DNA of 50,188 bases. It comes from Candidatus Lambdaproteobacteria bacterium RIFOXYD2_FULL_50_16 (lineage in GTDB: Bacteria; SAR324; XYD2-FULL-50-16). Both the position numbers and the translations under genes were made by a program. This document shows positions 8,303-34,268 of the stretch, piece after piece (the stretch's first letter is position 1; each line of letters starts with the position of its first letter). Where the stretch lies: positions 1 through 50,188 of the forward strand of contig MFNE01000004.1 in NCBI GenBank assembly GCA_001783695.1. The letters are read 5' to 3'. The notes beneath the pieces are model-generated. The model did no database searches, was not told the DNA's origin, and saw nothing but the letters and a program-made list of their open reading frames with translations.

Positions 8303-8743
8303 ATGAGTGAGCACAATTTTCAAAAAACCTATGAACCGTCGCTTGATAAGGAACTGCTAAGCCGCATCAGTGATCTGCTGCGTGAACTATTCGGGGAGGA
8401 TTTGACCAAGCTGAGTCAGATCAAACCTAATGTCTGGGTGGTCGAAGAAGCGGGCTTTTTTATGGATATCATCGTCACCAGCCTACTTTTAGTGTTGGAT
8501 GCGCAACTCTTTGAAAAAATGCCTACTGACTCCAAAGGGGCCTATAAAAAGATGCTGCAATTAAACGCCCATCATGTCAAAGAAACCCGCCTTTGTTTGG
8601 TCAAGGAGGCGGTGCATCTGCGTGCCTTGGTTAGCCACCAAAACATTGACCAGCCCAAACTAGAAGACGCCCTGGCCGAATTCCGCGCCTTGTTCCCCAT
8701 TATTCATGGTGAGCTAAAATCCTTTTTCCCTCAGGATACTTAA
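8303..8743 (+). CDS. Small protein of unknown function, possible YbjN/CesT-like fold
   Basis: About 146 residues, cytoplasmic, no signal peptide. The pattern is helix, then strands with WVVEEAGFFMDIIVTSLLLVL, then RLCLVKEAVHLRALVSHQN and a C-terminal helix. It loosely recalls the YbjN/type III chaperone fold, but I do not recognise the family. Start choice is uncertain: in-frame ATGs lie at 8285, 8288 and 8303 and none has a strong ribosome-binding site; the frame extends to 8240. Its stop overlaps the ccmA start (TAATG), so it is translationally coupled to the haem-exporter genes and may have a role in cytochrome maturation. That link is inference from position only. Confidence 0.65.
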   Translation: MSEHNFQKTYEPSLDKELLSRISDLLRELFGEDLTKLSQIKPNVWVVEEAGFFMDIIVTSLLLVLDAQLFEKMPTDSKGAYKKMLQLNAHHVKETRLCLVKEAVHLRALVSHQNIDQPKLEDALAEFRALFPIIHGELKSFFPQDT

Positions 8744-9447
8744 TGCGGCCCCTCTTGGTCGCGGCGGGGGTAAAAAAGGATTTTGGGTATAAACAAATCC
8801 TTAAAGAGGTCTCCTTTGGTTTGTCTAAAGGGGACGCAACCTTACTGCTGGGCAAAAACGGGGCGGGGAAATCGACCTTGCTAAAGATTATGTCGGGCCT
8901 GATGCGGCCTACCGGGGGGGCGGTGCATTTTGAGGGTAAACCAGTCATTGAGGACCCAGACGGCTTGCGCCGTGCCTTAGGGGTTATTGGCCATCATCCA
9001 CAGGTTTACGGAGACCTCAGTGCTAAAGAAAACCTAATCTTTGCTGCAAGGCTGCGCCACGTGGCCGATCTGGAAGAGCAGGTGGAGAAGGCTTTGGTTC
9101 AGGTTGGGTTAGAGCGGTTTAAAAACGCGCAAGTCAAAAATTTTAGTTCAGGAATGTTTAAGCGATTGGCCATCGCCAAACTCATGGTTACCGCCCCTCG
9201 GGTGCTGCTTTTAGACGAGCCCTATACCGGGTTGGATTACAAATCAGTCGAGTTTTTTAATGAATACCTGACCCAGTTTAAACAAGGCGGTGGAGCGATT
9301 TTATTGGTAAGTCACCAATTAGACTGCTGCTTTGAACTGGCCGGGAAGATTGCCATTTTAGAACAGGGCGTAATCGACCAAGAACACCAACGCTCCGACT
9401 TTGAATATCAAGAACTAGTTGAACATTACCAAAGGTCAACCCAATGA
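8743..9447 (+). CDS. ccmA: Haem exporter ATP-binding subunit CcmA
   Basis: ABC-type ATPase of the CcmABCD complex of system I cytochrome c maturation, which energises release of haem-bound CcmE. Walker A is GKNGAGKST (residues ~38-46), the signature is FSSGMFKRLAIAK, Walker B is VLLLDEP, and the switch histidine lies in LVSHQ. The 234-residue length is right for CcmA. Followed by ccmB with a 4-bp overlap and ccmC, which is what separates this from a generic ABC ATPase. CcmE, CcmF and CcmH are not in the window. Confidence 0.93.
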   Translation: MRPLLVAAGVKKDFGYKQILKEVSFGLSKGDATLLLGKNGAGKSTLLKIMSGLMRPTGGAVHFEGKPVIEDPDGLRRALGVIGHHPQVYGDLSAKENLIFAARLRHVADLEEQVEKALVQVGLERFKNAQVKNFSSGMFKRLAIAKLMVTAPRVLLLDEPYTGLDYKSVEFFNEYLTQFKQGGGAILLVSHQLDCCFELAGKIAILEQGVIDQEHQRSDFEYQELVEHYQRSTQ

Positions 9448-10115
9448 TCGGTGACGCCTACGTTATCTTAAAAAAGGACCTGATCCTTGACCTGCGCCGC
9501 ATGGAAAACTTTGTGGCCATGTTGTTTTTTGGGGTGATTATCCTCTTGGTCTTCTCCTTTGCTTTGCCCCAAGACGAAGAGATGCATAAAAACCTCGCAC
9601 CCGGCGTCTTTTGGGTGACCTTTTTACTTTCAGGTATCTTAGGGCTTTCTAAAAGCTTCCAGATGGAAAAGGAGATGGGCTCAATGGAAGCCCTGCTCCT
9701 GGCTCCCATCAGTCGGGGGTCCATTTTTTTAGGCAAGATGTTAGGCAACTGGATCTTTGTGTTGGTCATGCAATGCCTACTAATCCCTCTGTTTTCGCTG
9801 CTGTTTTTTGCCCCGGCGATGGATCATTTTGGGGAAATGCTAGCCCTTTCGGCGCTAACCGCTTTGGGTTTTTCTAGTCTAGGCACCTTACTTTCGGGCC
9901 TGACTACCGACGTGCGCTTTAAAGAGATCTTGCTACCCATTCTCCTTTTTCCCCTGTTAATCCCGTTACTTTTGGCGGCCGTGCGGATTTTGGCAGGAAT
10001 TTTGGTGGGGGAGGGTTTCCAAGGGGAGCTAGATTGGTTAAAGTTGCTGATCGGCTTTGATCTTATCTTCTTGATCATCGCCTATTTGACCTTCGATTTC
10101 GTAATGGAGCTTTAA
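9444..10115 (+). CDS. ccmB: Haem exporter permease CcmB
   Basis: A 223-residue membrane protein with six predicted hydrophobic helices, matching CcmB in length and topology. The early part reads DLILDLRRMENF followed by the first helix, and LLSGILGLSKSFQMEKEMGSM is typical of CcmB between helices 2 and 3. It overlaps ccmA by 4 bp and ccmC by one base (TAATG), so the three are a single coupled operon. It acts in the inner membrane with CcmA and CcmC to load haem for c-type cytochrome assembly. Confidence 0.92.
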   Translation: MIGDAYVILKKDLILDLRRMENFVAMLFFGVIILLVFSFALPQDEEMHKNLAPGVFWVTFLLSGILGLSKSFQMEKEMGSMEALLLAPISRGSIFLGKMLGNWIFVLVMQCLLIPLFSLLFFAPAMDHFGEMLALSALTALGFSSLGTLLSGLTTDVRFKEILLPILLFPLLIPLLLAAVRILAGILVGEGFQGELDWLKLLIGFDLIFLIIAYLTFDFVMEL

Positions 10116-10786
10116 TGCGGTATTCTTCGATCCTGGGTTGGTTGTCCTTGTTAGGTTTGGCGCTGACCGCCTATTTGGTGTTTGCCTGGGCTCCCATAGA
10201 GCAGGCCATGGGGTTTGTGCAAAAGATTATGTATATCCATGTTCCGAGTGTGCTGGTTTGCTATGCCGCCTTTTTTATCAGCTTTTTGGCTAGTATTGGT
10301 TACCTCTGGAAACGAGAAGAAAAATTCGATGTTACCGCTTATGCTGCTGCCGAAGTGGGCGTGATCTTTTGTGGCTTGACCCTGGTTACTGGCGCCATTT
10401 GGGGCCGCCCTACTTGGAATACCTACTGGACCTGGGACGCTCGGTTGACCACAACCTTGATCCTCTTTTTGATTTTTGTGGGCTACCTCCTGCTGCGCCG
10501 GTTTGTGGAATATTCAGACCAACAGGCCCGGTTTGCCGCCGTTATTGCGATTATTGGTTTTTTGGACATCCCCTTGATTCACCAAGCGGTTACTTGGTGG
10601 CGGACCCTACACCAAACCTCGACCTTGTTTTCTAAAAAGGCTGGGGTAATCGATGACCCCTTAAAATGGATGCTGTATCTAAGCATCTTTGTTTTTTATC
10701 TGCTTTTTGCTTACCTCTTAGCCAAACGAGTGGAGCTGGAAAATCGGGAAAGGGCGCTCAAGCGGCTCCTGGCCAATGCCGACTAA
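10115..10786 (+). CDS. ccmC: Haem-handling protein CcmC
   Basis: A 223-residue inner-membrane protein of the haem-handling protein family with six hydrophobic segments. The periplasmic tryptophan-rich WWD-type segment reads WGRPTWNTYWTWDARLTT, and conserved histidines flank it (YIHVPS and WWRTLHQTSTLF). CcmC places haem on CcmE. The order ccmA-ccmB-ccmC with overlapping codons is typical. The product would support maturation of the Cyc2-like cytochrome encoded at 27784-29097. Confidence 0.93.
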   Translation: MRYSSILGWLSLLGLALTAYLVFAWAPIEQAMGFVQKIMYIHVPSVLVCYAAFFISFLASIGYLWKREEKFDVTAYAAAEVGVIFCGLTLVTGAIWGRPTWNTYWTWDARLTTTLILFLIFVGYLLLRRFVEYSDQQARFAAVIAIIGFLDIPLIHQAVTWWRTLHQTSTLFSKKAGVIDDPLKWMLYLSIFVFYLLFAYLLAKRVELENRERALKRLLANAD

Positions 10787-10859
10787 ATTGGGCTAAATGG
10801 GGCTTGGCTATGGGCCCTCGTTGGGGTAGGCTTAAACCGACCTTAGCCCCAAGTTGCCC

Positions 10860-11993
10860 ATGTCTGAACAAGACCAAAGCTTAGAAATTCGAATCCGGCT
10901 GGACGGAGCCCACGTGGCCAAGGTCGAGGTCCATTCGCGAAGGCCTTTGGAATACGCCCAGATCTTAATGGGCCGAAGCCCCGAAGAGGCCATTCGGCTA
11001 ATCGAAAAATTCTTCCCCCTTACTCGCGCAGCCCATCTCCATGCGGCGGTACAGGCTTTAGAAGAAGCCAGCGGTATCCACGCCCCCGCGCACCACGCCA
11101 AGGCCCGAACCCTCTTGGTGCATCTGGAAAACATTGCCGAACCAGCCGAACGATTGAGCCAGGATTGGGCCCAAACCTTGGGGCGCTCCCTGCCCGAAGG
11201 CGACTGGCAAAGGCTAAAGGAGCAAGCCCGAAAGGCCCTGTACCCCACGGGCGAGCCCTTTTCCTTGACCCTGCGCCATGTACAACCCGAACCAGAGGCC
11301 TTTGCTCGGATCGTCCAGGCGGCTGAGTTAGGGCTGACTGATCTGTTAGGGCTGGACCCTTCGACCTGGGCCAGCCAAACCCCGGAGGTTTTGGCGGTTT
11401 GGTTGGAGGATTCCAAATCCTTGGCTGCTCAATATTTCCGCTGGCTTGGCCAGTTGCCCGATCTGGTTGAGGTGCCTATCGAGCCCCTTGAGTGGCATAG
11501 CACCCAAAATTGGAATCAGTTTTTTACAGACCTCTTGGCCGCCGAATTGATTTATCTTCCCGAATGGGCGGGGCAATGCCGCCAGACTGGAGCCTACGCT
11601 CGCCAAGCGAGGAGCTTGATGTTAAAAGATTTTAAATCAACCAACCCCCTAAAGCGCCACTGTCTTGCCCAATTGTTAGACCTATGTTTTCAGTTTCGCG
11701 CGTTAAAAAAGGGGCTGGAAATTCCTGTGACTTCGCCAGGCTCTCCTAAACATGCGGGGCTTGGGCTGGCGCAGACCGAAGGGTCACGTGGGCGAATTGT
11801 CCACCGTATTGAACTCGAAAGGGGATTGGTCAAACGATACCAAATTCAGGCTCCAACCGAATGGAACTTCCACCCACAAGGCCTTTATGCCAGCACGCTC
11901 AGAGGGGCCCCAGCAGAAAAAATAGCGGTGCTTGCGCAACATTGGGCCAAGTTGGTTGACCCCTTTGTATTACCAAAATTTCAAATCCGGTGA
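10860..11993 (+). CDS. HupK-like protein related to the NiFe-hydrogenase large subunit
   Basis: A 377-residue soluble protein. The N-terminal part (RRPLEYAQILMGRSPEEA) and the C-terminal part (GRIVHRIELERGLVKRYQI, then APTEWNFHP at residues ~331-339) follow the large subunit of NiFe hydrogenases and especially the HupK accessory family, where APTEWNFHP is characteristic. The two CxxC nickel-ligand pairs of true large subunits are absent: the first site reads FPLTRAAHLHAA and the C-terminal DPCxxC position reads DPFVLPKF. It therefore cannot hold the NiFe centre. HupK is known as a hydrogenase maturation factor, but no hydrogenase structural gene lies in this window. The frame opens at TTG 10854; I prefer the ATG at 10860. 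Sits 73 bp after ccmC, perhaps in the same transcript. Confidence 0.75.
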   Translation: MSEQDQSLEIRIRLDGAHVAKVEVHSRRPLEYAQILMGRSPEEAIRLIEKFFPLTRAAHLHAAVQALEEASGIHAPAHHAKARTLLVHLENIAEPAERLSQDWAQTLGRSLPEGDWQRLKEQARKALYPTGEPFSLTLRHVQPEPEAFARIVQAAELGLTDLLGLDPSTWASQTPEVLAVWLEDSKSLAAQYFRWLGQLPDLVEVPIEPLEWHSTQNWNQFFTDLLAAELIYLPEWAGQCRQTGAYARQARSLMLKDFKSTNPLKRHCLAQLLDLCFQFRALKKGLEIPVTSPGSPKHAGLGLAQTEGSRGRIVHRIELERGLVKRYQIQAPTEWNFHPQGLYASTLRGAPAEKIAVLAQHWAKLVDPFVLPKFQIR

Positions 11994-21598: not shown

Positions 21599-24500
21599 GT
21601 GTCAAAACCCCTATTCAAGATCCAAACTTTTGCACTCATGACCGATCCATCCAAAATCGCTACCGATAGCCTGCAAGGAACAGACTGGGTGGTCCGGTTT
21701 GTCTCCACAGCCGAGCGTCGCCAAGTGATCGGGCATGATTTGATTGTTAGAGCCTTGGAGTCTCAAGGGTTTAAGGTTGATCACGAAGAATATAAAATCA
21801 CCAAAAAAACCGAACACAAAAGGCCTATCAATCCCAAAAAACCAGATGGGCCTAAAGAAACGGTGGTGATTGAGGAAAAAATTAATGTTAACGGCTCGAT
21901 TCGGCATTTGCGGCAATTGGCTTGGCGAGCTACCAAAGATGAGGAAAATTTACTCCTCGTACAGTTAGAACGGCTCAAAGGGGAGTCGGTGGCGGTGCCC
22001 TTGATTTACCGCGAGGTTTTAGAAAGTGGCAAAGCGATTTTGGTGACCGGACTTTCCAGATCGGTGCATTCCCAACTGCTAGCGAAGCCCGATATTGGCC
22101 TAAACCTAATTTCCGAATTCCTCGCCGAGGACAAAGAATCCTTGGAGGATTTGGTCGCGCGCAGTAAACGCAAAAAAGGTTTTCAGTCAGCAGCACGCGA
22201 GATAATGGACCTGCAAGGTCTCTCGCCAGAGGTTTCCAAACGGATTTCAGAAGTGGCCTTGGGCAAAGCGGCCAGTGTGACCGATGAAGAAGCGGTTAAC
22301 ATTTTACTGCTCTCAGACCTCTATAGCCGATACCAGCCTATTTTGATCCAGTTCTGGGAAGATGTTAAACGCAAATCCCACCCGCCTGCCGCCTTGGCCA
22401 AGCAGTTTGAACTTTTATGCGATGGCATCCCAACGATGACCTTGGTCAAAAAGTTTTCGGTTTATTTGGATTCAGAGCGCAAATACAAAAACAACGCCGA
22501 AATCTTTTTAAGCCTGTTTGCCTGTTTGCAAGAGATGGATAAGGGCGGTTTTAAAGGGGACCCAAAGCTTTACACCCCAACTGCTATGTGGTCCTTGGTC
22601 AAAGGGGTGATGGTTATTGGCCGAAGCCAAATAGACCCCGATTTGTGGGGGAAGTGTGTTTTCTTTTTTAATCCCGAGGACGAACGCACCGAAACCAAGG
22701 CTAGCTTAGAGGCGATTGTCCGCTTAGGGGCTAAATTTAAAAATGAATATATCAAACGGATGGCCACCAGCAGTCAAAGCCTGCAGGACATCTTCGACAC
22801 AGTAAACGCGGATCGTTATCTAAAACGCCACCCTTTAAGTTTTGGCCAATTAGATAAACAAGAACGGTCCATTGCCGAACAGTGGCTCAAGCGACGCCTG
22901 GGGTTCCAATTGGCTACAGATGAACTAGACCAATTATCCCTTTTTACCTCCGAACAACCTCCGATCCCTAAGCTTATTTATTCTATGCCCACTATAGGCG
23001 GGGCCTATGGTTATACCATTTCCCAGATGTTAAAAGCGACTGCCAGCGATTTTTTGAAGCCGGACGCGGTTACCCTTGGTAAAAGGATGGGTAAAGAGTT
23101 TTTTGAGATCTGTTATTTTAAGTGTGTAGTCGAACCTGCTTTGCCCGTGACCCGTGGCCAGTTTGGCCGTTGGTTGACCTCTTTAGGGATGTTGGAAAAT
23201 CCAGAGGCCATGGGATTTGTCCCTGACGAAAAAGAGGAAGCGCCAGATGCGTGGATAAACGACGATGTTTTAAAGGGCACAGGGAACTCGATTATCCCCA
23301 AAGACGTGGGCCCCGACGAATTTTCGGTCGCTTACCAGGATGCGCGGCAGAAATATCAGTCCTTTTTTGCAAAGTTGCGTAACCATGGCTTTGCGGCTAA
23401 CGAAGAATACAACCCGGCCAAACTGCTACTTTCCTGCTTTGAACAAGGCATCTTCGACTTCGGCACCCCTGCTTTCCGCCATTGGCTCAAGGGAACCTAT
23501 CTGCATGATGAACTAGAAGAAGTGATTTCCAATTGCACCGCCGAGTTAAAAGAAACCCTGGCTGAACATGCCAAAGGGAGCAAATTAGCCCTCTTTTTAC
23601 CCCAGCCTTTGGCGGGTATTTTTTATATGACCCGCCGATTTAACATCCGCGTGGCGAACCGAAAACTCAAGGTTCATCTACTCCTGCACCCGGCCAAAAA
23701 ACCGAGCGAACTCTTTGGGGCGCATCGCGACTTTGCCAAGGCGGTGAGTGCTTATCTAAAGGGTGGGACCGAGGCCGAGCGGCAGGGATTGGTTCAGGCG
23801 ATGCAGATGATTGCTGAATACCAAAAAGGGGCGGAAGAGTATTTGCGATTTTTAGGGTTGTTTTTGTTTGACCGTTTTTTGCACGCCTATCACCGATTGC
23901 GCGAAAGTTCCTCGATGAACAGCCCGTCCCATATCAAATATTGGATACCAGATAACCGCAAGTTGGTTATAGGCAACCTCAAGGGGCTAAATCTCGCGAA
24001 GATGATTAACTTTGTTCAGGACTCGAAACGGGGGGATGGCCCCCCGGTTCACAACCAAAGTTTAGCGCAGTTCGCTCAAGGGATTTTTTATTACCAAAAC
24101 AGCGGTAAAAAGATGAAGGAGATCGCCAAAAAAACTAAAAAATTGGCTAAACTGTTTGATCGTTTTTCTGATTCCCTTAAAAAGACCAGTGAGTTCAAAC
24201 GGTACGAAAAAAAGTTAAGTCAATTAACTGAACTGCTTGAGCGACCAGTCGAACTGTTTACTGCTAAAAAATTGGCTGAAATTGAAGAAATCTCCATGCA
24301 AATGAAACAAATGGCGGACAATAGCGATTCGGGCGATGCGGTGGTGGCTAGGCTGCAAAAGGAGTGGATCAAACGCTACCCCCAAGATGATACCATCGCT
24401 AAACCACATAAGGTATTTAGCCATGAGCGCAACAAAAATGACAATTTCCTGATGGAATTAACCTTGGGCCGTGACTTGGTTTTGCAGTTGCAGGTAAAAC

Positions 24501-24715
24501 GCTGCGTCATCTTTGTTCCAGAGCAAGGGAAAAAAGGGCAAATGGAAGCAATTTTAAATCTTCTGCCCTTTATCAGCCAGCATGCCCACGATGCCGAGTA
24601 CTACTTAGAGATTTCCAGTCTCGACCAAGAATCACAAAAGGGATTGGCTCGGGAAATCGACCCGACTCACTTCTTTAGTTCAGAAAAGATTCAGCCAATC
24701 CCCAAGGCTAACTAA
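21599..24715 (+). CDS. Large protein of unknown function (about 1,038 residues)
   Basis: A soluble, charged, mainly helical protein with no signal peptide and no membrane segment. I do not recognise any domain. The first 110 residues carry a mixed alpha/beta region (TDWVVRFVSTAERRQVIGHDLIVRALESQG) with a lysine-rich insert. A long helical stretch follows. Near the C-terminus a clear coiled coil (GKKMKEIAKKTKKLAKLFDR, ~840-920) precedes a small beta-containing end (LELTLGRDLVLQLQVKRCVIFVPEQG). Start choice: GTG 21599 opens the frame; ATG 21638 is an alternative 13 codons in. It overlaps the end of the convergent GH77-like gene. Codon usage looks like its neighbours, so I see no sign of transfer. 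Confidence 0.85.
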   Translation: MSKPLFKIQTFALMTDPSKIATDSLQGTDWVVRFVSTAERRQVIGHDLIVRALESQGFKVDHEEYKITKKTEHKRPINPKKPDGPKETVVIEEKINVNGSIRHLRQLAWRATKDEENLLLVQLERLKGESVAVPLIYREVLESGKAILVTGLSRSVHSQLLAKPDIGLNLISEFLAEDKESLEDLVARSKRKKGFQSAAREIMDLQGLSPEVSKRISEVALGKAASVTDEEAVNILLLSDLYSRYQPILIQFWEDVKRKSHPPAALAKQFELLCDGIPTMTLVKKFSVYLDSERKYKNNAEIFLSLFACLQEMDKGGFKGDPKLYTPTAMWSLVKGVMVIGRSQIDPDLWGKCVFFFNPEDERTETKASLEAIVRLGAKFKNEYIKRMATSSQSLQDIFDTVNADRYLKRHPLSFGQLDKQERSIAEQWLKRRLGFQLATDELDQLSLFTSEQPPIPKLIYSMPTIGGAYGYTISQMLKATASDFLKPDAVTLGKRMGKEFFEICYFKCVVEPALPVTRGQFGRWLTSLGMLENPEAMGFVPDEKEEAPDAWINDDVLKGTGNSIIPKDVGPDEFSVAYQDARQKYQSFFAKLRNHGFAANEEYNPAKLLLSCFEQGIFDFGTPAFRHWLKGTYLHDELEEVISNCTAELKETLAEHAKGSKLALFLPQPLAGIFYMTRRFNIRVANRKLKVHLLLHPAKKPSELFGAHRDFAKAVSAYLKGGTEAERQGLVQAMQMIAEYQKGAEEYLRFLGLFLFDRFLHAYHRLRESSSMNSPSHIKYWIPDNRKLVIGNLKGLNLAKMINFVQDSKRGDGPPVHNQSLAQFAQGIFYYQNSGKKMKEIAKKTKKLAKLFDRFSDSLKKTSEFKRYEKKLSQLTELLERPVELFTAKKLAEIEEISMQMKQMADNSDSGDAVVARLQKEWIKRYPQDDTIAKPHKVFSHERNKNDNFLMELTLGRDLVLQLQVKRCVIFVPEQGKKGQMEAILNLLPFISQHAHDAEYYLEISSLDQESQKGLAREIDPTHFFSSEKIQPIPKAN

Positions 24716-26742
24716 GCCTTAATTTGGGGGGTAGGGTAGCCTCGACCTTCAGGCCAAACCAAAAAATGATGGATTTGGCCGGGTCTTAGTTTAAAATAGA
24801 GCCCCTCAGCGGCTATCTTTTTATCTTCATAGTGGTACGCCGGGCTTTCTAGGTTTAAATCTAAAAAGGCGTGTCTAGCTCCTTCGGACAGTTTTAAAAC
24901 CGAGGCTATCTGCAACATCCCCTCTAACTCTTGGTCTGTTTCGTTGGCTAAGGTTAGCTCAATTAATCCTGATAATAGCGCCTCTGGACCGGGGTACAAT
25001 TCCCAGCCCGCTTTAAAATGGTGCCTTAGGATTTGCCGACCTTTGGGTTGAGACCAGAGTGCTCGGGTCCCGGCTGGTGAAGCCAGTTCTTCAAAGACCC
25101 CAAACCGCACAAAACGTCGCTGGCCCAAACGCTTGAGAATAGCCGCTGTTTCAGGACGTTCTAACAAGGAGATGGGAGGAGAAAAATAGGACCAGTTCCC
25201 CTCTTCATTTCCGACCTCGCCACTTGTGCCGGGTTGCACGTTGATATTGTTAAACTTAGAGGCGTTTCGGTATTCTGGGGTAAGCCAACTTAAAAGACTA
25301 GGTAGCGTAAAAAGCAGATCCTTCGCTGGCGAACCCCAGGCTAGGCGGGTGAGGACCTCTTCGTAAAAATCGCCAGAAAACGCTCCTAGGGTGAGGGGCA
25401 TTTGGGATTTATACAAGGGTATGCCTAACACTTGCCGGCAAAATTCAAGAATTAAATGGGGGCTTTCAAAGTCGGGGAACCGGCCTTTTTGGTTAATTAG
25501 GTATTGCAGCAAGGTCGAGGTATCGTGGGTTTCGACCGCCAATAAGGCTTGCTCTGGATATTGATCTAAGGTTAAAAACCGGTCGCCTTCGCGCTCCCAA
25601 CGTGGGATCATCATCAAGCTGATCGGCGCTCCGGCTTTAGCCATTTGCAACGCCACCCGCTTGGTCACCTCCACCCTATTAAAATCGCCCGCAATTTCCC
25701 CCCGAACCTTGAGACCTGAATCGGTCACCAGTTGCAAAAACCAGCAGATATTTTCTTCGCGAACCGATTCGTCTTCGGTTAAAAAAGCCCCAAGTTGTTG
25801 CCCCGGTGCGGGATTGGCCCTGCGGGGCAGGGCGTATTGGCCACACCAGCCAACTAAGTGATCAATAAAAACCCCATCGCCCAGTTGGGCCAACCAAGCA
25901 AGTCGTTCTTTGAGGTAGGTCTCCAACCCAGCAGAATGTTCTTTATACAAAGCCATGCCCCAAGCCTGTTCTGGGTACCCATTTTCTGGTTCAGGGCCGC
26001 AACCTACCTGATTTTGGGTGTCAAAAACTTCAGGATGAAAAAACACATCTGCACTATGGAATTCAACACCAAAAGGTAGGTTGACAATCAGCCCCACCTT
26101 GAGCCGCCGCAAGTCCTCAACTAGGGCACGGCGCTGCTCAAAACAGAGAAATTGAACATATTCAAAATAGCCAATTTTCTCTTGGTGCTTTCCGGCATAG
26201 GCGCGCGCTAATATTGGGTCTTTAAGTGCCTCCAGGCCTGATCCAGAAAGACCTTGACTAGTGGCGGCCTCATATAAGGCATAATGTGGCAGCCAGTAAT
26301 CCTGGGTTTGTACAAAGTTTTCAAAGGCCTGCCTGCGATTGGTGCGGGTTTGGGCCAAAAAAAACGAATAACAAGCCTCTAAAATCCAAGGCATCAGGCT
26401 TAACTTTAAAGGGAAACTTAGGGTCCGGTCTCCCTTGAAATGAGCCGAGTAATGCCGATTAATCTCGGTTAGGTGATCGAAGATAGGCAGTGCCGGGGTT
26501 ATTTCGGGGATGCGGTTAAGATCGAGTTGCAAAGGGTCTAGGGCAAATCCTGACTTCAAAGAGAAGGGACTAGCCATTCCAGGCGACTTAGCGCCACTGG
26601 GCAAATCATAAAGGTCGCAGTTTAGTCCTAAACGACCTACAATCTCGCCTAGGTGACGCAGTCCGTCTAAGCTGGTGGTGCCAAAGGAGCGCGCGCGGGC
26701 GCTATTGATTTGGGAAGCGCCAACTAAGAGATTGAACTTCAT
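24712..26742 (-). CDS. GH77-like 4-alpha-glucanotransferase (MalQ/amylomaltase), divergent
   Basis: A 676-residue protein with an amylomaltase core: WLPHYALYEA, YFEYVQFLCFEQ, the GLIVNLPFGVEFHSADVFF segment and YPEQAWGMALYK. The three catalytic acids can be placed: nucleophile D294 in VFIDHL, acid/base E349 in RGEIAG and D407 in ETHDTST. Family members nearly always have Arg two residues before the nucleophile (RIDH); here it is Phe (FIDH). About 150 residues of beta-rich C-terminal extension follow. It would rearrange maltodextrins or glycogen-derived glucans if active. It overlaps the upstream formiminotransferase gene by 41 bp. No other glycogen genes lie nearby. Confidence 0.8.
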   Translation of the reverse strand: MKFNLLVGASQINSARARSFGTTSLDGLRHLGEIVGRLGLNCDLYDLPSGAKSPGMASPFSLKSGFALDPLQLDLNRIPEITPALPIFDHLTEINRHYSAHFKGDRTLSFPLKLSLMPWILEACYSFFLAQTRTNRRQAFENFVQTQDYWLPHYALYEAATSQGLSGSGLEALKDPILARAYAGKHQEKIGYFEYVQFLCFEQRRALVEDLRRLKVGLIVNLPFGVEFHSADVFFHPEVFDTQNQVGCGPEPENGYPEQAWGMALYKEHSAGLETYLKERLAWLAQLGDGVFIDHLVGWCGQYALPRRANPAPGQQLGAFLTEDESVREENICWFLQLVTDSGLKVRGEIAGDFNRVEVTKRVALQMAKAGAPISLMMIPRWEREGDRFLTLDQYPEQALLAVETHDTSTLLQYLINQKGRFPDFESPHLILEFCRQVLGIPLYKSQMPLTLGAFSGDFYEEVLTRLAWGSPAKDLLFTLPSLLSWLTPEYRNASKFNNINVQPGTSGEVGNEEGNWSYFSPPISLLERPETAAILKRLGQRRFVRFGVFEELASPAGTRALWSQPKGRQILRHHFKAGWELYPGPEALLSGLIELTLANETDQELEGMLQIASVLKLSEGARHAFLDLNLESPAYHYEDKKIAAEGLYFKLRPGQIHHFLVWPEGRGYPTPQIKA

Positions 26743-27694
26743 GGATTTTACCCTTTTTTAATAGATTCAACTCGATCACTTTTGAGTCTTCATCGAAGTG
26801 GCCCAGTTCGTCCAGCCCCAAAGCCGAGATTGCCGCTGGTAGATCAGATAAAGTTTGAGTTTGATCAATTAGTGCTTCTAAGGGGCAGAGCCCAACTAAT
26901 TCGGAGCCGGTGACTTGCATTCCCATGTTTTGAGCCACTTCGGAGACCCGCGCAAAAACCTGGGCTATCGAACACTGGTGGTAATCTAACAGATTAGTGC
27001 TTAATTGAGCGCGGCCCAGCTGCGGAGCTACCCAGCCAAAAAATCGAACCGAGGCTAACTGCGGGTCTGTATTGCGGCGGGTGCGGAGCGCCTTGGCTAG
27101 GGTTTGGGCTTGTTCCAGATTACAGGAGTTCAAGTTGAGGTTAAAGGCGATTAATATCGGACGAACCCCGACCACGCTGGCCCCCAAACGGGGATTGGGG
27201 AGGATCGGTCCAAAATCGGGGGCCCATTCTGGGAGGGACAGCTTATCCCCCAAAGCCTCATAGCCCCCCTTTCTAATGGAGGCCAAATCCTTTCGCTTAG
27301 GTGAAGACGCAGACTGGGCGTAGAGATAAACCGGCAATTGATGGGTCTCGGCTAAGGACTTACCTAGTTGTTGGCTAAGTCGAATGGTTTCATCGAGGGT
27401 AATTTTAGATAAGGGTATCAGTGGGCAGACATCCAGCGCTCCAATCCGGGGGTGGTTCCCTTGGTGCTGGCGCATGTCGATTCGTTCAAAGGCGATCTTA
27501 CTGGCTTTGAGGAGGGCGTCTAGCACCAAATCAGGAGGCCCGATCAGGGTGTAAACCGTGCGGTTGGCATCCATCCCGGCATCTAGGTGGAGCAAGGTCA
27601 CCTTAGGCACGCTGGCCAAGGCTTGGGCGATTAATTGGATCGTTTGATTATCCCGGCCTTCGGAAAAGTTGGGAACCGCTTCGATCAATTGCAT
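26702..27694 (-). CDS. ftcD: Glutamate formimidoyltransferase (FTCD N-terminal type)
   Basis: A 330-residue protein matching stand-alone formiminotransferases: EAVPNFSEGRD at the N-terminus, DANRTVYTLIGPP, and QGNHPRIGALDVCPLIPL, which carries the catalytic histidine. It transfers a formimino group between formiminoglutamate and tetrahydrofolate, linking histidine breakdown with one-carbon metabolism. The cyclodeaminase domain of the animal FTCD is absent, and no hut genes lie in the window. It is followed by the GH77-like gene with a 41-bp overlap, which is unusually long and metabolically unexplained. Confidence 0.88.
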   Translation of the reverse strand: MQLIEAVPNFSEGRDNQTIQLIAQALASVPKVTLLHLDAGMDANRTVYTLIGPPDLVLDALLKASKIAFERIDMRQHQGNHPRIGALDVCPLIPLSKITLDETIRLSQQLGKSLAETHQLPVYLYAQSASSPKRKDLASIRKGGYEALGDKLSLPEWAPDFGPILPNPRLGASVVGVRPILIAFNLNLNSCNLEQAQTLAKALRTRRNTDPQLASVRFFGWVAPQLGRAQLSTNLLDYHQCSIAQVFARVSEVAQNMGMQVTGSELVGLCPLEALIDQTQTLSDLPAAISALGLDELGHFDEDSKVIELNLLKKGKIHEVQSLSWRFPNQ

Positions 27695-27720
27695 CTGGGA
27701 GGCAGGGAAACTGGGTACAA

Positions 27721-27754
27721 AAAAAAAGGCCCGCCGCTGTTACGCGCCGGGCCC
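27721..27754 (-). terminator. Rho-independent terminator after the Cyc2-like gene
   Basis: On the minus strand GGCCCG (27748-27753) pairs with CGGGCC (27728-27733), and the stem is followed by a run of T (complement of the A-run at about 27719-27727). It ends the cytochrome transcript 30 bp after its stop codon and separates it from ftcD. Confidence 0.8.
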
Positions 27755-27783: not shown

Positions 27784-29097
27784 TTAGAAGGCCATGAAGA
27801 GCATCATTTGGTTATTGGTGTAAGCTTCGTAAGCATCGCCGGCGGTGTTAGCCTTGGCGGTGGTTTGGATGTTGTATTCGAACTTGATGTTCTGAGCGAT
27901 CATGTACTGAACACCGATGTCCGAAAGCGACTGTGAGCCAAGGCCCGAGCCATCGTCGAGGCTGCCGGTTTGTACTACTAAGGACAGTTCGGGCATTACC
28001 GAAATCTTAGCCGCTACACCACTAGCAGACTTAGCGTTGAAGTTGCCATCCGCATCTGCACCAGCAGCAAAGGTGTTTACTGCGCTGGTGTAACCATCAG
28101 CGGTTGCAGAGCCAGCGGGTACGCTAGCGCTGGTGACGTAAATACCCGTCATCATGCCAGCTAGGTCACCCTGCATTTGGAAGTCGAAGTAGCTGCCCGC
28201 AGGAGCCACTTTGATTGCTTCATACTTGCCAGCAGCGGTCTGGTGGGTGTGGTCTAAGGTCTGAGCGGTACCAGAGAACATGCCAATACCGAAGGCGGTA
28301 TCGAAGCCAGCCAGATCCATCATGAAAACGCCACGAATGAAGGTGGCCATGGTGGTCAAGTTGCCTGCTTGCTCATTCTCCTCAGGGAAGTTAACCGGAG
28401 CCCATTGGTTAAAAGTAAAGTACCAGTTGGGAGCCGAAGCAACTAAGTCTAGACCTGCCGCAGCGTCCACGAAACCAACTTGGACGGGAGCCGAAGCAAC
28501 CTTAGATTCCGAGTAGCGCTGAAGACCCAAAGAAGCGGTGTTCAACAATTCGAAACCGTAAGTGGGGCCTTGACCGTCGGTCATGTAAGGAATCACCAAC
28601 AAGTCAATATCACCAACTTTACCAGCTTGGAAGGACAGTTTCGAACCCAACAAACCAGGTCCAGTGGCGGTCTGTGAAACTTCCCACAAGAAGCCAGCGT
28701 TAGCCGAAGCACGACCACCAATTAACAAAGCCGATTCATCGGGGAAGTCAATTCGACCGAAGTCCATCGAGCTACCGGTCTCGGTGTAGTCTCCGCTACC
28801 CTTGTTATGGCGCATCTTCAAAACCGCGCCAATGTTCAAGGTGTCGGGCAATTTCATGGCATTTTCGCCTTCGATCGAAGCCTGTGAACCTTCCATCGAG
28901 TATGAGCCAGCCTTAAAAGACCGACCCATCTGGTTCAAGGCGGGAAAGTTTTGAAAGTGGCAAGAGTTACAGGCCATGCCGGTTTGGCGAGCAAAAGCCG
29001 GTACGGCTTGAGCATCAGAACCGGTGAATACAGAAGTTGCAACGAGGCCAAAAGCGGCCAGGGACAATCCTAACTTTTTCGCAAAGTTATTTCGCAT
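27784..29097 (-). CDS. cyc2: Cyc2-like outer-membrane cytochrome-porin fusion
   Basis: A 437-residue exported protein: signal peptide to about residue 31 (GSDAQA), then VPAFARQTGMACNSCHFQNFP with one haem c site, C43-N-S-C46-H47. The remaining ~360 residues form a beta-barrel with alternating strands and Gly/Ser/Asp loops, ending in phenylalanine (MMLFMAF). This single N-terminal haem plus barrel, and the FARQTGxxCxxCH context, is the architecture of Cyc2, the outer-membrane Fe(II) oxidase of many neutrophilic and acidophilic iron oxidisers. Homologues also occur in organisms not shown to oxidise iron, so the substrate is inference. It is alone in its transcript with its own terminator, and a ~330-bp structured upstream region precedes it. 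Confidence 0.8.
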   Translation of the reverse strand: MRNNFAKKLGLSLAAFGLVATSVFTGSDAQAVPAFARQTGMACNSCHFQNFPALNQMGRSFKAGSYSMEGSQASIEGENAMKLPDTLNIGAVLKMRHNKGSGDYTETGSSMDFGRIDFPDESALLIGGRASANAGFLWEVSQTATGPGLLGSKLSFQAGKVGDIDLLVIPYMTDGQGPTYGFELLNTASLGLQRYSESKVASAPVQVGFVDAAAGLDLVASAPNWYFTFNQWAPVNFPEENEQAGNLTTMATFIRGVFMMDLAGFDTAFGIGMFSGTAQTLDHTHQTAAGKYEAIKVAPAGSYFDFQMQGDLAGMMTGIYVTSASVPAGSATADGYTSAVNTFAAGADADGNFNAKSASGVAAKISVMPELSLVVQTGSLDDGSGLGSQSLSDIGVQYMIAQNIKFEYNIQTTAKANTAGDAYEAYTNNQMMLFMAF

Positions 29098-29748: not shown

Positions 29749-30276
29749 ATGAAACTACCCATTCTTTTGGGACTTGGACTCAGCTTACTCGCTTTACCGG
29801 CGATGGCATTTGAGAAAGCAGATCTAGAAAAGTTGCGCAGTACCAAAAAATGCAACGCTTCTACCTTTTCTAGTTGCGACCTCTCTGGGGCAAGCTTGAT
29901 GGATATTGACCTCAATGGGGCCGAACTAGAAGGGGCTAACCTAGAAGGGATCACCATGGAAAATGTGGACCTTTCTAAAGCCAACCTATCCGAAGCCAAC
30001 CTCAAGGGGGCAAGGATGACCAAGGTAAACCTCAATCAGGCCATACTTAAGGAGGCTAATTTGGATGGGGTCAAGATGATGGCGGTGTCTGTTGAGGATG
30101 CGGATTTAACCGATGCTAAACTGACCGGCGGTACTCTCAAAGGGGTCAGTTTTAAAAACAGTGTATTTAAGGACACGGTCCTAACCAATACTGACCTCAA
30201 ACTCTCAAACCTTTCAGGGGTAACCGGGATTACCGAGGCCCCCTGTGCTAAACCCAGCTTTGGTGCTTGTAAATAA
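29749..30276 (+). CDS. Secreted pentapeptide-repeat protein
   Basis: A 175-residue protein with signal peptide ending LPAMA. Residues ~45-160 consist of pentapeptide repeats of the A(D/N)LXX type (for example LSGASLMDIDLNGAELEGAN), which fold as a right-handed quadrilateral beta-helix of about five coils. Pairs of cysteines flank the repeats (KKC...SSC and APC...GAC), suggesting disulphide caps in the periplasm. AGGGA precedes the start. No partner or function is evident. Confidence 0.88.
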   Translation: MKLPILLGLGLSLLALPAMAFEKADLEKLRSTKKCNASTFSSCDLSGASLMDIDLNGAELEGANLEGITMENVDLSKANLSEANLKGARMTKVNLNQAILKEANLDGVKMMAVSVEDADLTDAKLTGGTLKGVSFKNSVFKDTVLTNTDLKLSNLSGVTGITEAPCAKPSFGACK

Positions 30277-30296: not shown

Positions 30297-33200
30297 CTAA
30301 ACTTCGTTTAAGAAGTGGTGGGCCACTTGCAGAGAAACCTGTTCCGAGCTGGCTCCAAAGCAAGAGCGGATCAGGGCCTCATAGATCGACTCTCGGTTGT
30401 TGAAAATATTCACTCCATCTACATCTATAAAGACGTTGGACTGAATCGCTAAGTGGTAGGATTCGAGTAAGGCGGGGCTTTCTTTAAGCTTATATATGGG
30501 CAAAGTGCCAACATAAACCAGTACCAAACTATTTCTACTTTTTTGAGGCCTAGGATTGCTGGTGGCCAGGTCCTCCTTGAATTTACAAAGCTGTAGAGCC
30601 TCTTCCATAGATATGGACGAGGGCAAATATAAGCAACGTTCGTCAATGTCCCCCTCCCATATCCGCGAAATCCGAGATTTGATGGATTCAACCCCATGGG
30701 TTTCAACCTTGTTGAGGCCGGGGCGATCCATATGGGCCAGCGCTGGAGCGCAACCTTGGGGGTACTTTTCGTTGAGTAACTGGAAAGCGGCGTTGATATT
30801 TTTTTCAGTATGATTTTTGGTGGACGACTGAACTTCCAAACAAAATCCGCCCTTGAAAAACTGGGGAAAGCCATGGCGCTTGCGGAAATAGCCGTCAAGT
30901 AGGGCCTGCTTGATTTGATTTTGCTTAGAAAGCACTTCAGTTAAGAAAGTATCGGCGCGAGCTAAAAGCTCCATTTCCCTTTCAACTAAGGGTATATACT
31001 GGGTTTTTAGGAGTAACCTTGCCGAAGGTAGCGCCTTGGACATAGCTACTTTTTCTAAAAGTGGCTCTTGGGCGCGTAGGAATTCCAATTCCTTTTGTTC
31101 CCCCTCTATCTCTGCCCCAATGGCGTTTACCCCTTGGGTCCAGTTGACTAGGTCCTTGGACCAATCGTTTATGGCTTCTCTTTTTTCGGCCTGTTCGATT
31201 AAATCAACAAAGTTAATCAAGCTAAGCTGTTTGCCAGGTTCGAGGGCTTCTTTAAAGCTGACCAAGGCCTCGCCCATTTGGGCCCGCAAGGTGCTTAACT
31301 CTTTTCGAATCTCCTCGGGGACCTCTTGTTTGCTTTGCAAACTTTCTTGAATCTTGGTTAGGCTGGCGGGGTCCTGGAGTAACATCTGCAAGGCCTTCAG
31401 CTTCAGTTTATCTCGCTCTGCCATGACATGAACCTCGACCGCTTGGGTTTGAGCCCGAAAGAGTTCTTGGTCTAATTGCCCCAACTCGGTCAAACGCTCA
31501 GACAAGTTTTTGGCGATGCTAATCATCCGCTCGGCTTCGGCCAGATAGTACTTAATATAAACCAATAGGTTACCCCGCTCTTTAGTCGGGTCTTGGAACA
31601 TCCCTTTGACGTTACAATCCTTAAGTCCAAGTAGTTTTTCTTTTAATTCCTTAACCAGGGCTAGGGGCAGCTGCTGGCTCGATTGGTCTGCTTGCACCTC
31701 GGTTTCCAGTTGTTTTTTTAATTCGATAGCTAGGCTACGAATGCGGGCTGGATCGGTGGCCGCTTGTTCTTGGGCAAATTTTTTGACCTCATCGAGCATC
31801 TTTTTGCGGGTCTGAATCCACAAGGCCTTTTGGAACAGCCCTGCCAAGGAAAGTACTTTTTCGTAATACTTAAACGAAGCCCCATGCACCTTGGTAAACG
31901 GGTTAAACAGGGCTACCACCTGCCCCCTTTTTACCTTGTGTAGCCCCATAATATGGGTCCGCATTCGGGCCAATTCGCCTTGATAGTCCCCTAAAAACGC
32001 CTCTAAAGCCCCTCCGGCAAGGTCGCGGCCTAGCAGTTCACTTAATTTGGCTCGGCCAGACTCAACCAAGATATCAATCTCGGCCTTTTCCTTTTGCAAT
32101 GAGGTGATGTTTTCTTCTTTTTGTGTTAGTTGGCCGGTGAATATTCCTTTAATCCGTTCAAGCAATTTAACGTAGGCCTGTTCTTTGTTGGCCGGGTTTT
32201 CTAAAAAAGCCAATTCATCACTTAGGCGTTGTTTTTGCTCACCGGCTAAATAGGTTAGTTCGGCAAGGGTGTGCTTGTATTGATGGTGAAAACTCTGTTT
32301 TAGCTCTTTTGCCTTGGCCAAAACCTTTTCCGTAAAACCCCGCATAAACTGAATAAATTGCATCTCCTCGTCTTCAGAGGCGGCAATAAAAATCTTGGCG
32401 TTTAAAATCCCGTTTAAACAAAGCGCCGGGTAAGCGGTATGGCGGTAATGGGTGATCAGGTCCTTGCGCTTGGTAAAGATAACCATGTCTGGATGGTAGT
32501 TTGGATCGGTAGCGATAGGCTTGATATGGTGATGGTAAAAAAGCATCTTTTCTACCAACAGCACCGCCCTTTGCACCAATTCGCGCTTCTTGAAAAAAAA
32601 GAAGTTGTCCCCAATAAAGTCGCGCTGGCCTGGGTCTAGGCGCTCCTTGTTAATGGCCAAGTCGCCTTGGTCTTCGGCCTCGGTGCCCATTTCCTGCTCG
32701 ACCTTGAGGTCCTGATCATAACGGTCATGGATGTTGAGTTGGAAGAAATCATCCATGTATTTAATCAATTCTTTAAGCTCTATCGAAGCCCCCTCTAAAA
32801 CCTCGGGGGTGGCCGCTTTGGGGTCTTGTAGGCTTAAATAAGCCCGAGCTTTTTTGGTAAGACGCAAAAAATCGTGATCCGTAAAATTAGGGCTTTTCGA
32901 AAGATCGGTGATTTTGCCCACGAGTTCTTTGATCTCGCCGTGAAGTGCGGCGAAGTCGGCTTCTAGCTTGGTGGGGTTTTTTAGGTCAGTGGGGGCGAAG
33001 CCTACACAAGGGGCGTCTAAAGGTAAAATATCTAACGACTTCAACGAAGACAGCACCAGCTGGCTGGCCACGTCGCCCGCCACCACCTTGTGTTGTGTCA
33101 AAAGTCTAAGCTCCAGATCGGACTGGCGAATTCGTTTTGCGCGCTCGTATTCGGTATAACCGCGACCCAAAAATTGGGCGGCTAAAGCAAAGTTGGATTC

Positions 33201-34268
33201 ACCCCGGTTAAAGGGGATAACCCGGTCGATCATAGAGCTTTGGTCTTCTTTGTGGAGTTTGATCTTTTGTACCCGGGCAATGTGGTACTCGTTTGGGCCC
33301 ACGCCACGGGTAAAAATTACCTGTTGGGTATCGAGGTTAAGTTCAATCTCTGTAATCTCGCCAGGGGTTAGGTCCACCATCTCTGGTCCCACCTTAACCC
33401 GAATAAAATCGATTTGCTCTGGGGTCAACAGACCCCCATCGAGATTTTTGGCCATAATATGCCCAGTGGCGACAAACTCCCCACCTACTGAAAAACCTGC
33501 CACGTTTTTAGATTGGGCCGCAGTCAGTTTGAAGGCCTGGATGTCGTCCCACTTCAGATGGAGACTATGTTTAGCATGAGACAATATCCCTCCCGCATCC
33601 TTTTTGCGGTTAAAGTAACCTAGCGCGTTTTTAAGCTTGCCTAAAGGGAGTTGCAATATCTTCGACTGGCCGCCCTGCTTGACTTTAAGTTGGATCTCTG
33701 AAAAAAAGCTCTTGTCTAAAATGGCCGGGCGCCTTTGCCCCTGACCTATTCCTTTGAGATCGTCTGGATGGGTTAAGGTCTTCCATGAATCTGTTTTAAA
33801 CTCTTCAAAAAATTCCGCTTGCCGCCCCCCGCCCTTGGCCAAAAAAAAGGTCAAATATTGGATTAATTCTTGATCCGAGAAATGGGTCAAGAGAAGCGGA
33901 GGGAACTCAAAGCCCCGCTCTAACATAAAACAAATTTCTAAAAAATCCTCGATCTCTTTGATTTGGATATTGGAGAGGATGTAGGCCAAAAACTGTTCTT
34001 CTTTACCTTTAAATTCCTTGATGAGGTTAATCTTGATTTGGCCGTCAATTTTTTTGTCGAGCCCTTGGCCCCTAACACTTAACATCCCTTCTAAGCCAGG
34101 AGGGACATACTCAGAGAGGTTAGAGCCGTTAAAGCAAACAATCTCTAACTTGCCGGTCATCTCGCCTAAGGTCATGGGCTTGACCTTTAGATCTTTGCGA
34201 GCCTGAATCAGCAGGTCCGCACGGCTTTGGTCGGTTAGTTTTTCGGGGTGCTCGTAATAATGTTTCAT
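30297..34268 (-). CDS. Giant coiled-coil protein of unknown function (1,323 residues)
   Basis: A cytoplasmic protein without signal peptide or membrane segments. Residues ~1-400 are mixed alpha/beta with three short beta-rich blocks (for example FSVGGEFVATGHIMAKNLDG and PGEITEIELNLDTQQVIFT). Residues ~400-600 are helical, ~620-1110 are Glu/Lys/Leu/Gln-rich and look like long coiled coils, and the C-terminal ~210 residues appear globular. I do not recognise the family. Its start overlaps the end of the AI-2E-type transporter gene by 4 bp, so they are coupled. It could be a scaffold, but that is only inference from shape. Confidence 0.85.
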   Translation of the reverse strand: MKHYYEHPEKLTDQSRADLLIQARKDLKVKPMTLGEMTGKLEIVCFNGSNLSEYVPPGLEGMLSVRGQGLDKKIDGQIKINLIKEFKGKEEQFLAYILSNIQIKEIEDFLEICFMLERGFEFPPLLLTHFSDQELIQYLTFFLAKGGGRQAEFFEEFKTDSWKTLTHPDDLKGIGQGQRRPAILDKSFFSEIQLKVKQGGQSKILQLPLGKLKNALGYFNRKKDAGGILSHAKHSLHLKWDDIQAFKLTAAQSKNVAGFSVGGEFVATGHIMAKNLDGGLLTPEQIDFIRVKVGPEMVDLTPGEITEIELNLDTQQVIFTRGVGPNEYHIARVQKIKLHKEDQSSMIDRVIPFNRGESNFALAAQFLGRGYTEYERAKRIRQSDLELRLLTQHKVVAGDVASQLVLSSLKSLDILPLDAPCVGFAPTDLKNPTKLEADFAALHGEIKELVGKITDLSKSPNFTDHDFLRLTKKARAYLSLQDPKAATPEVLEGASIELKELIKYMDDFFQLNIHDRYDQDLKVEQEMGTEAEDQGDLAINKERLDPGQRDFIGDNFFFFKKRELVQRAVLLVEKMLFYHHHIKPIATDPNYHPDMVIFTKRKDLITHYRHTAYPALCLNGILNAKIFIAASEDEEMQFIQFMRGFTEKVLAKAKELKQSFHHQYKHTLAELTYLAGEQKQRLSDELAFLENPANKEQAYVKLLERIKGIFTGQLTQKEENITSLQKEKAEIDILVESGRAKLSELLGRDLAGGALEAFLGDYQGELARMRTHIMGLHKVKRGQVVALFNPFTKVHGASFKYYEKVLSLAGLFQKALWIQTRKKMLDEVKKFAQEQAATDPARIRSLAIELKKQLETEVQADQSSQQLPLALVKELKEKLLGLKDCNVKGMFQDPTKERGNLLVYIKYYLAEAERMISIAKNLSERLTELGQLDQELFRAQTQAVEVHVMAERDKLKLKALQMLLQDPASLTKIQESLQSKQEVPEEIRKELSTLRAQMGEALVSFKEALEPGKQLSLINFVDLIEQAEKREAINDWSKDLVNWTQGVNAIGAEIEGEQKELEFLRAQEPLLEKVAMSKALPSARLLLKTQYIPLVEREMELLARADTFLTEVLSKQNQIKQALLDGYFRKRHGFPQFFKGGFCLEVQSSTKNHTEKNINAAFQLLNEKYPQGCAPALAHMDRPGLNKVETHGVESIKSRISRIWEGDIDERCLYLPSSISMEEALQLCKFKEDLATSNPRPQKSRNSLVLVYVGTLPIYKLKESPALLESYHLAIQSNVFIDVDGVNIFNNRESIYEALIRSCFGASSEQVSLQVAHHFLNEV

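Follow-up and report, generated by a model that had tools for sequence, protein, structure and literature searches.

Does a cytochrome-porin gene in a Lambdaproteobacterium encode a genuine Cyc2, an outer-membrane protein through which other bacteria draw electrons from dissolved iron, and if so, where could the electrons that it takes up go? We studied a 50,188-nucleotide stretch of contig MFNE01000004.1 (hereafter, the window) from Candidatus Lambdaproteobacteria bacterium RIFOXYD2_FULL_50_16, which groups with Candidatus Lambdaproteobacteria in the SAR324 phylum. An earlier note, made from the sequence of the window, had proposed a Cyc2-like protein for extracellular electron entry, possibly indicating iron oxidation in an unexpected lineage. 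In the literature, this lineage comes as no surprise: Lambdaproteobacteria appear by name on the Cyc2 tree of PMC12442345, and PMC9769843, a study including Dive96 samples, lists SAR324 among the Cyc2-bearing groups. Cyc2 in Lambdaproteobacteria/SAR324 is thus already known, and the addition made here is its respiratory context.

The features of the window are listed in Table 1. Neither Pfam nor NCBIfam, both of which were searched, has a model that covers the Cyc2 protein; thus, homology had to be demonstrated by other means. The published signature is AXPXFAR[Q/K][T/Y] ahead of a single CXXCH, and then PXL (PMC8406198). The single CxxCH in a FARQTGxxCxxCH context, on which the earlier note relied, was found as AVPAFARQT-GMA-CNSCH, and is followed by PAL at residues 52-54 in the order CNSCH-FQNF-PAL, which fits a PXL four residues downstream of the heme site. 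Three residues lie between T39 and C43, where PMC8406198 gives about 5 upstream. CNSCH is the sole CxxCH pattern match in the 50-kb window, and the motif A.P.FAR[QK][TY]...C..CH had one match in the six-frame window and none in 300 mononucleotide shuffles. Read by eye, the N-terminus has a basic n-region, a hydrophobic stretch, and an AQA/VP cleavage site followed by AVPAFARQTGMACNSCHFQNFPALNQMGRSFK, in agreement with the proposed signal peptide. Together with this signal peptide, the 437 residues exceed the family length of at least 365. Of 69 columns with conservation of 85% or more across 32 homologues, the protein retains 62, including all those in the heme segment, and its identity to the nearest homologues is 48-52%.

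Table 1. Features of the window, with positions counted from its first letter
Feature	Position	Strand	Basis or remark
cyc2, fused monoheme cytochrome-porin	27784..29097	-	437 aa, ATG start; ORF, tree, AlphaFold, Foldseek
Signal peptide, residues 1-31, MRNNFAKKLGLSLAAFGLVATSVFTGSDAQA	29005..29097	-	By-eye reading of sequence
Cyc2 signature AVPAFARQT, residues 31-39	28981..29007	-	Fits AXPXFAR[Q/K][T/Y] of PMC8406198
Heme c binding site CNSCH, residues 43-47	28957..28971	-	Sequence pattern
Predicted outer-membrane beta-barrel, residues 88-436	27790..28836	-	AlphaFold strands, Foldseek porin matches
Conserved inter-strand loop (barrel strands 5-6), residues 174-212, motif TDGQGPTYGFELLNTA	28462..28578	-	Model and conservation
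Intrinsic terminator, GC-rich hairpin and T run, directly 3' of cyc2	27719..27753	-	Sequence reading
Formiminotransferase (FTCD) gene, downstream of cyc2 and conserved there, marker of synteny	26702..27694	-	Domain search, synteny
Exported pentapeptide-repeat protein, divergent from cyc2	29749..30276	+	Present in each of the family's three genera with Cyc2
ccmA-, ccmB-, and ccmC-like genes, System I heme export	8743..10786	+	NCBIfam-type models

The fold was predicted by AlphaFold2 with 32 homologues. The model (mean pLDDT 79.4, pTM 0.79) is weak in the signal peptide and in the residues just ahead of the heme site. A search of the PDB by sequence with the Cyc2 profile gave zero matches, and Foldseek matched the model to solved porins at E values of about 1e-10; the best matches were 16-strand porins such as PorB, OprP (2O4V, E 3.6e-10), and OprO (4RJW, E 3.9e-8), and OmpT of Vibrio was also matched. 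A viral fold library returned generic phage-borne porins only. The predicted C-terminal barrel therefore stands as the earlier note described it, and the last residue of the protein is Phe (MMLFMAF). The 16 strands expected there were not cleanly reproduced, as DSSP assigned 17 long strands and 1 short strand, i.e., 16-18. The loop between strands 5 and 6 carries the invariant residues E183, N186, and T187, and its mean conservation (0.66) and that of the heme segment (0.73) are among the highest in the protein. In the model, the loop sits where porins have loop 3, which constricts their pore, and the Cyc2 loop may narrow the pore likewise.

Cyc2 homologues were taken from a survey of the SAR324 phylum and a scan of named genomes, and two trees, of 59 and 53 rows, were constructed. 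The proteins from the host, RIFOXYD2_FULL_56_26, and Dive96_bin4.205 form one clade (support 99/97). Its sister contains Thiodiazotropha symbionts, gammaproteobacterial MAGs, and a Thiobacillus denitrificans MAG (joint clade 100/98), and the joint clade nests (99/95 or 98/97) in a group with Chlorobium ferrooxidans, Gallionella, and Sideroxyarcus. More divergent Cyc2-like rows (Burkholderiales, Nevskia, and others) are split off by a 100/100 branch. What PMC12442345 and PMC7029218 term Cluster 1 is the group that contains C. ferrooxidans, Gallionella, and Sideroxyarcus. By its place in these trees, in which Chlorobium and Gallionellaceae sequences serve as the references for the cluster and which are without Mariprofundus, A. 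ferrooxidans, and Leptospirillum (no Zetaproteobacteria), the protein corresponds to the published Cluster 1. Both trees bear out the proposed family membership, and the gene product is confirmed as a genuine Cyc2.

Within the SAR324 phylum, Cyc2 was found in 4 of the 52 genomes, three in the family of the host and one, a distant copy, in another family; the homologues in the three other genomes of the phylum are intact. The orthologue of RIFOXYD2_FULL_56_26 (MFNF01000012.1) is about 50% identical and that of the MAG Dive96_bin4.205 (JAJRZQ010000002.1) about 40% identical, each from another genus of the same family. Dive96_bin4.205 has in addition a second, distant Cyc2-like paralogue with a FARKY form of the motif (L005, G005:C16:65327-65521). 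Outside the phylum, the nearest clade is that of the Candidatus Thiodiazotropha lucinid symbionts, which are gammaproteobacterial and show about 35% identity, with the Thiobacillus denitrificans MAG (cf. PMC12442345). Cyc2-PV1 of Mariprofundus ferrooxydans, a Cluster 1 member for which Fe(II) oxidation was measured (PMC8406198), is alike in signal peptide, AXPXFARQT, single CXXCH, PXL, porin barrel, length, and phylogenetic group. It differs in that the present model has 17-18 strands rather than 16, and in that the present host is a Lambdaproteobacterium with alternative complex III (ACIII) and Dsr genes, in which no O2 reductase was found.

Periplasmic partners were searched for by protein family and in selected stretches of the host genome, a 97.9%-complete draft of 54 contigs. 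There is no other cytochrome gene linked to cyc2 in the window, and an Rfam scan of the window gave no match. The CcmABC genes noticed earlier are indeed in the window (CcmA exceeds the TIGR01189 cut-off, and CcmB and CcmC are under theirs). Adjoining them is a gene for a 379-aa protein (10854-11993, plus strand) with partial likeness to NiFe hydrogenase large subunits, over the Pfam cut-off and far under those of NCBIfam. Elsewhere, the host genome encodes two diheme cytochromes of the c4 type. Of these, one (L103:3773-4390 on G000:C10) matches the cytochrome c4 structures 1ETP and 1H1O, the latter with an E value of 8e-17, and the other (L101:3869-4501 on G000:C9) matches cytochrome c4 with an E value of 4e-24. 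We take 1H1O to be CYC41, i.e., Cyc1, of A. ferrooxidans. Partner cytochromes of the kind anticipated by the earlier note are thus present as genes, and the two are candidate Cyc1-like periplasmic carriers for Cyc2. Twenty further CxxCH sites inspected in the host comprise a few class-I cytochromes and chance motifs, among which no denitrification enzyme was recognised. Genes for ACIII, with ActD (PF11821, E 1.3e-39), could take the place of the complex III needed for reverse electron flow. In the 97.9%-complete draft, bc1, RuBisCO, and an MtrB/PioB-type conduit were not found.

The terminal oxidase to which the earlier note looked did not turn up. One PF00115 match, on G000:C23, represents the sole heme-copper subunit I of the host, and neither a bd oxidase (PF01654) nor any canonical O2 reductase (cbb3, aa3, or bd) was found in the 97.9%-complete draft. 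From the Pfam match, the COX1 gene could be taken for that of an aa3-type terminal oxidase; this was overturned by the active-site motif, which is GHTLVN in the host and Dive96_bin4.205 as opposed to GHPEVY or SHPAVY in the aa3-type enzymes of relatives. At this position, Asn marks sNOR and CuANOR and Tyr marks O2 reductases (PMC8756737 Table A4); as Asn is common to both, it does not separate sNOR from CuANOR. The operon (L096:5352-9785) encodes a cupredoxin subunit II, the COX1 subunit I, SCO1/SenC, a CtaG-like protein, and a TM_HPP protein, and subunit II (COX2) carries the CuA ligands (CMEYCGSGH). The norSY-senC-orf1 cluster (sNOR) of ammonia-oxidising bacteria (PMC4940428) has the same gene content, the active-site Asn, and the CuA subunit II. 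An Rrf2 regulator, closest to NsrR/RirA with matches under the cut-offs, lies divergently beside the operon in the host and Dive96_bin4.205. Judged by its sequence, the one heme-copper enzyme found in the host is an NO reductase of the sNOR type, encoded on a contig other than that of its proposed partner Cyc2, and NO reduction is the predicted activity. Default annotation would name the operon cytochrome c oxidase.

The relatives differ in this respect. RIFOXYD2_FULL_56_26, which has cyc2 and is 97% complete, gave no heme-copper enzyme, in contrast to the host with its sNOR-type one, and no bd oxidase; Dive96_bin4.205 has cyc2 together with a true aa3-type oxidase (GHPEVY). As Cyc2 is conserved in the group and the terminal enzyme is not, an aerobic Cyc2 pathway cannot be assumed for the host, and this genome lends no support to the usual path by which electrons from Cyc2 reach an O2 reductase. 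Microaerophilic iron oxidation of the zetaproteobacterial kind, with an O2 reductase at the end of a chain from Cyc2 through Cyc1, would need either an oxidase missing from the draft, which is not a finished genome, or O2 reduction by the Asn-type enzyme. The aa3-type oxidase of Dive96_bin4.205 speaks for this route, but the host and RIFOXYD2_FULL_56_26, both at least 97% complete, lack a detectable canonical heme-copper or bd oxidase, and Asn at the Tyr position is a listed mark of sNOR/CuANOR; we regard it as unlikely.

We favour a role of Cyc2 in this host as an entry point for electrons from Fe(II), which it would oxidise, with a probability of about 0.68. A Cluster 1 Cyc2 would be an outer-membrane porin plugged by a small N-terminal monoheme cytochrome, in which dissolved Fe(II) would enter the pore from outside and donate one electron to the heme. 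The heme would then reduce a periplasmic diheme c4-type cytochrome (Cyc1-like), and this in turn a cytochrome-c-dependent terminal reductase. Given that the search for an O2 reductase came up empty, the likeliest such enzyme here is the sNOR-type NO reductase with its CuA subunit. In an alternative branch, electrons from the c4-type cytochrome would pass uphill through ACIII to the quinone pool. The donor (Fe(II)), the carrier order, and the acceptor are inferred from the genes described above, and the identity of the terminal acceptor is much less certain than the role of Cyc2 in electron entry. The complete chain, in which Fe(II) oxidation is coupled to reduction of NO (an N-oxide) via Cyc2, a c4-type cytochrome, and a CuA-type NO reductase without an O2 reductase, is a tentative and rather doubtful proposal.

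In a host that cycles sulfur, the electrons could also come from a donor other than dissolved Fe(II): reduced sulfur, FeS minerals, or a surface that acts like an electrode. The nearest Cyc2 relatives outside the phylum (Thiodiazotropha symbionts, the Thiobacillus denitrificans MAG, and Muproteobacteria) are from lineages known more as sulfur oxidisers than as iron oxidisers, and the host itself has DsrB, DsrK, other DsrMKJOP-like genes, and DsrEFH. However, known Fe(II) oxidisers belong to the same clade, the heme segment and most of the Cluster 1 conserved columns are retained, and a porin-enclosed monoheme plug has been argued to suit dissolved Fe2+ and not solids (PMC8406198). Thus, we find a different donor improbable. 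The sulfur genes (G000:C24 and C43; L130, L131) include dsrB, dsrK, DsrMKJOP-like genes, tusD/tusC/dsrH, and a molybdopterin oxidoreductase with NrfD; the direction of sulfur metabolism is uncertain, and earlier predictions of Dsr direction in Lambdaproteobacteria were termed inconclusive (PMC7596348).

The order trkA, AI-2E transporter, 1323/1329-aa protein, pentapeptide-repeat protein, cyc2, FTCD, and GH77 is common to three genera of one family, the partners being the RIFOXYD2_FULL_56_26 and Dive96_bin4.205 assemblies. In a relative without cyc2 (G001), the formiminotransferase and GH77-like genes still adjoin, and the upstream side differs. On this gene order, cyc2 is old in its Lambdaproteobacteria family, and its presence at the same locus in three genera suggests a retained function. 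The terminator directly 3' of the gene indicates that cyc2 is probably transcribed alone. Two large genes are also kept at the locus across genera: that for the 1323-aa protein (30297-34268, minus strand) has no match in Pfam, PADLOC, or NCBIfam, and that for a 1038-aa protein (21599-24715, plus strand) has none in Pfam or PADLOC.

A relaxed or non-respiratory relic, with Cyc2 serving as an ordinary porin or in iron or NO detoxification, could explain the long terminal branch of the host protein (0.85 versus 0.34 in RIFOXYD2_FULL_56_26) and a nearest identity of only 48-52%, but three genera keep the reading frame open and have the heme site, the signal peptide, and the synteny intact, and we consider a relic very unlikely. 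A contig misbinned from a known iron oxidiser, conceivable in a draft of 54 contigs, is refuted by the gene order common to two other assemblies of the family and by the monophyly of the three Cyc2 proteins; the shared locus marks cyc2 as native and excludes contamination to near certainty.

Our finding shows that a little-studied phylum has, in several of its genera, a well-formed Cluster 1 Cyc2 whose locus is stable, and it sets the protein apart from the oxygen-respiring context of the usual models. In the accessible parts of the published accounts of Cyc2-bearing lineages, we found no statement of the conserved cyc2 locus, nor one of the NO-reductase-type partner. As no oxygen-using oxidase was found in the genome, nitrogen oxides are a possible electron sink, and electrons may go to these rather than to oxygen. 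If Fe(II) is indeed oxidised with nitrogen oxides as the acceptor, cyc2 surveys in which iron oxidation is taken to be aerobic would have to be corrected.
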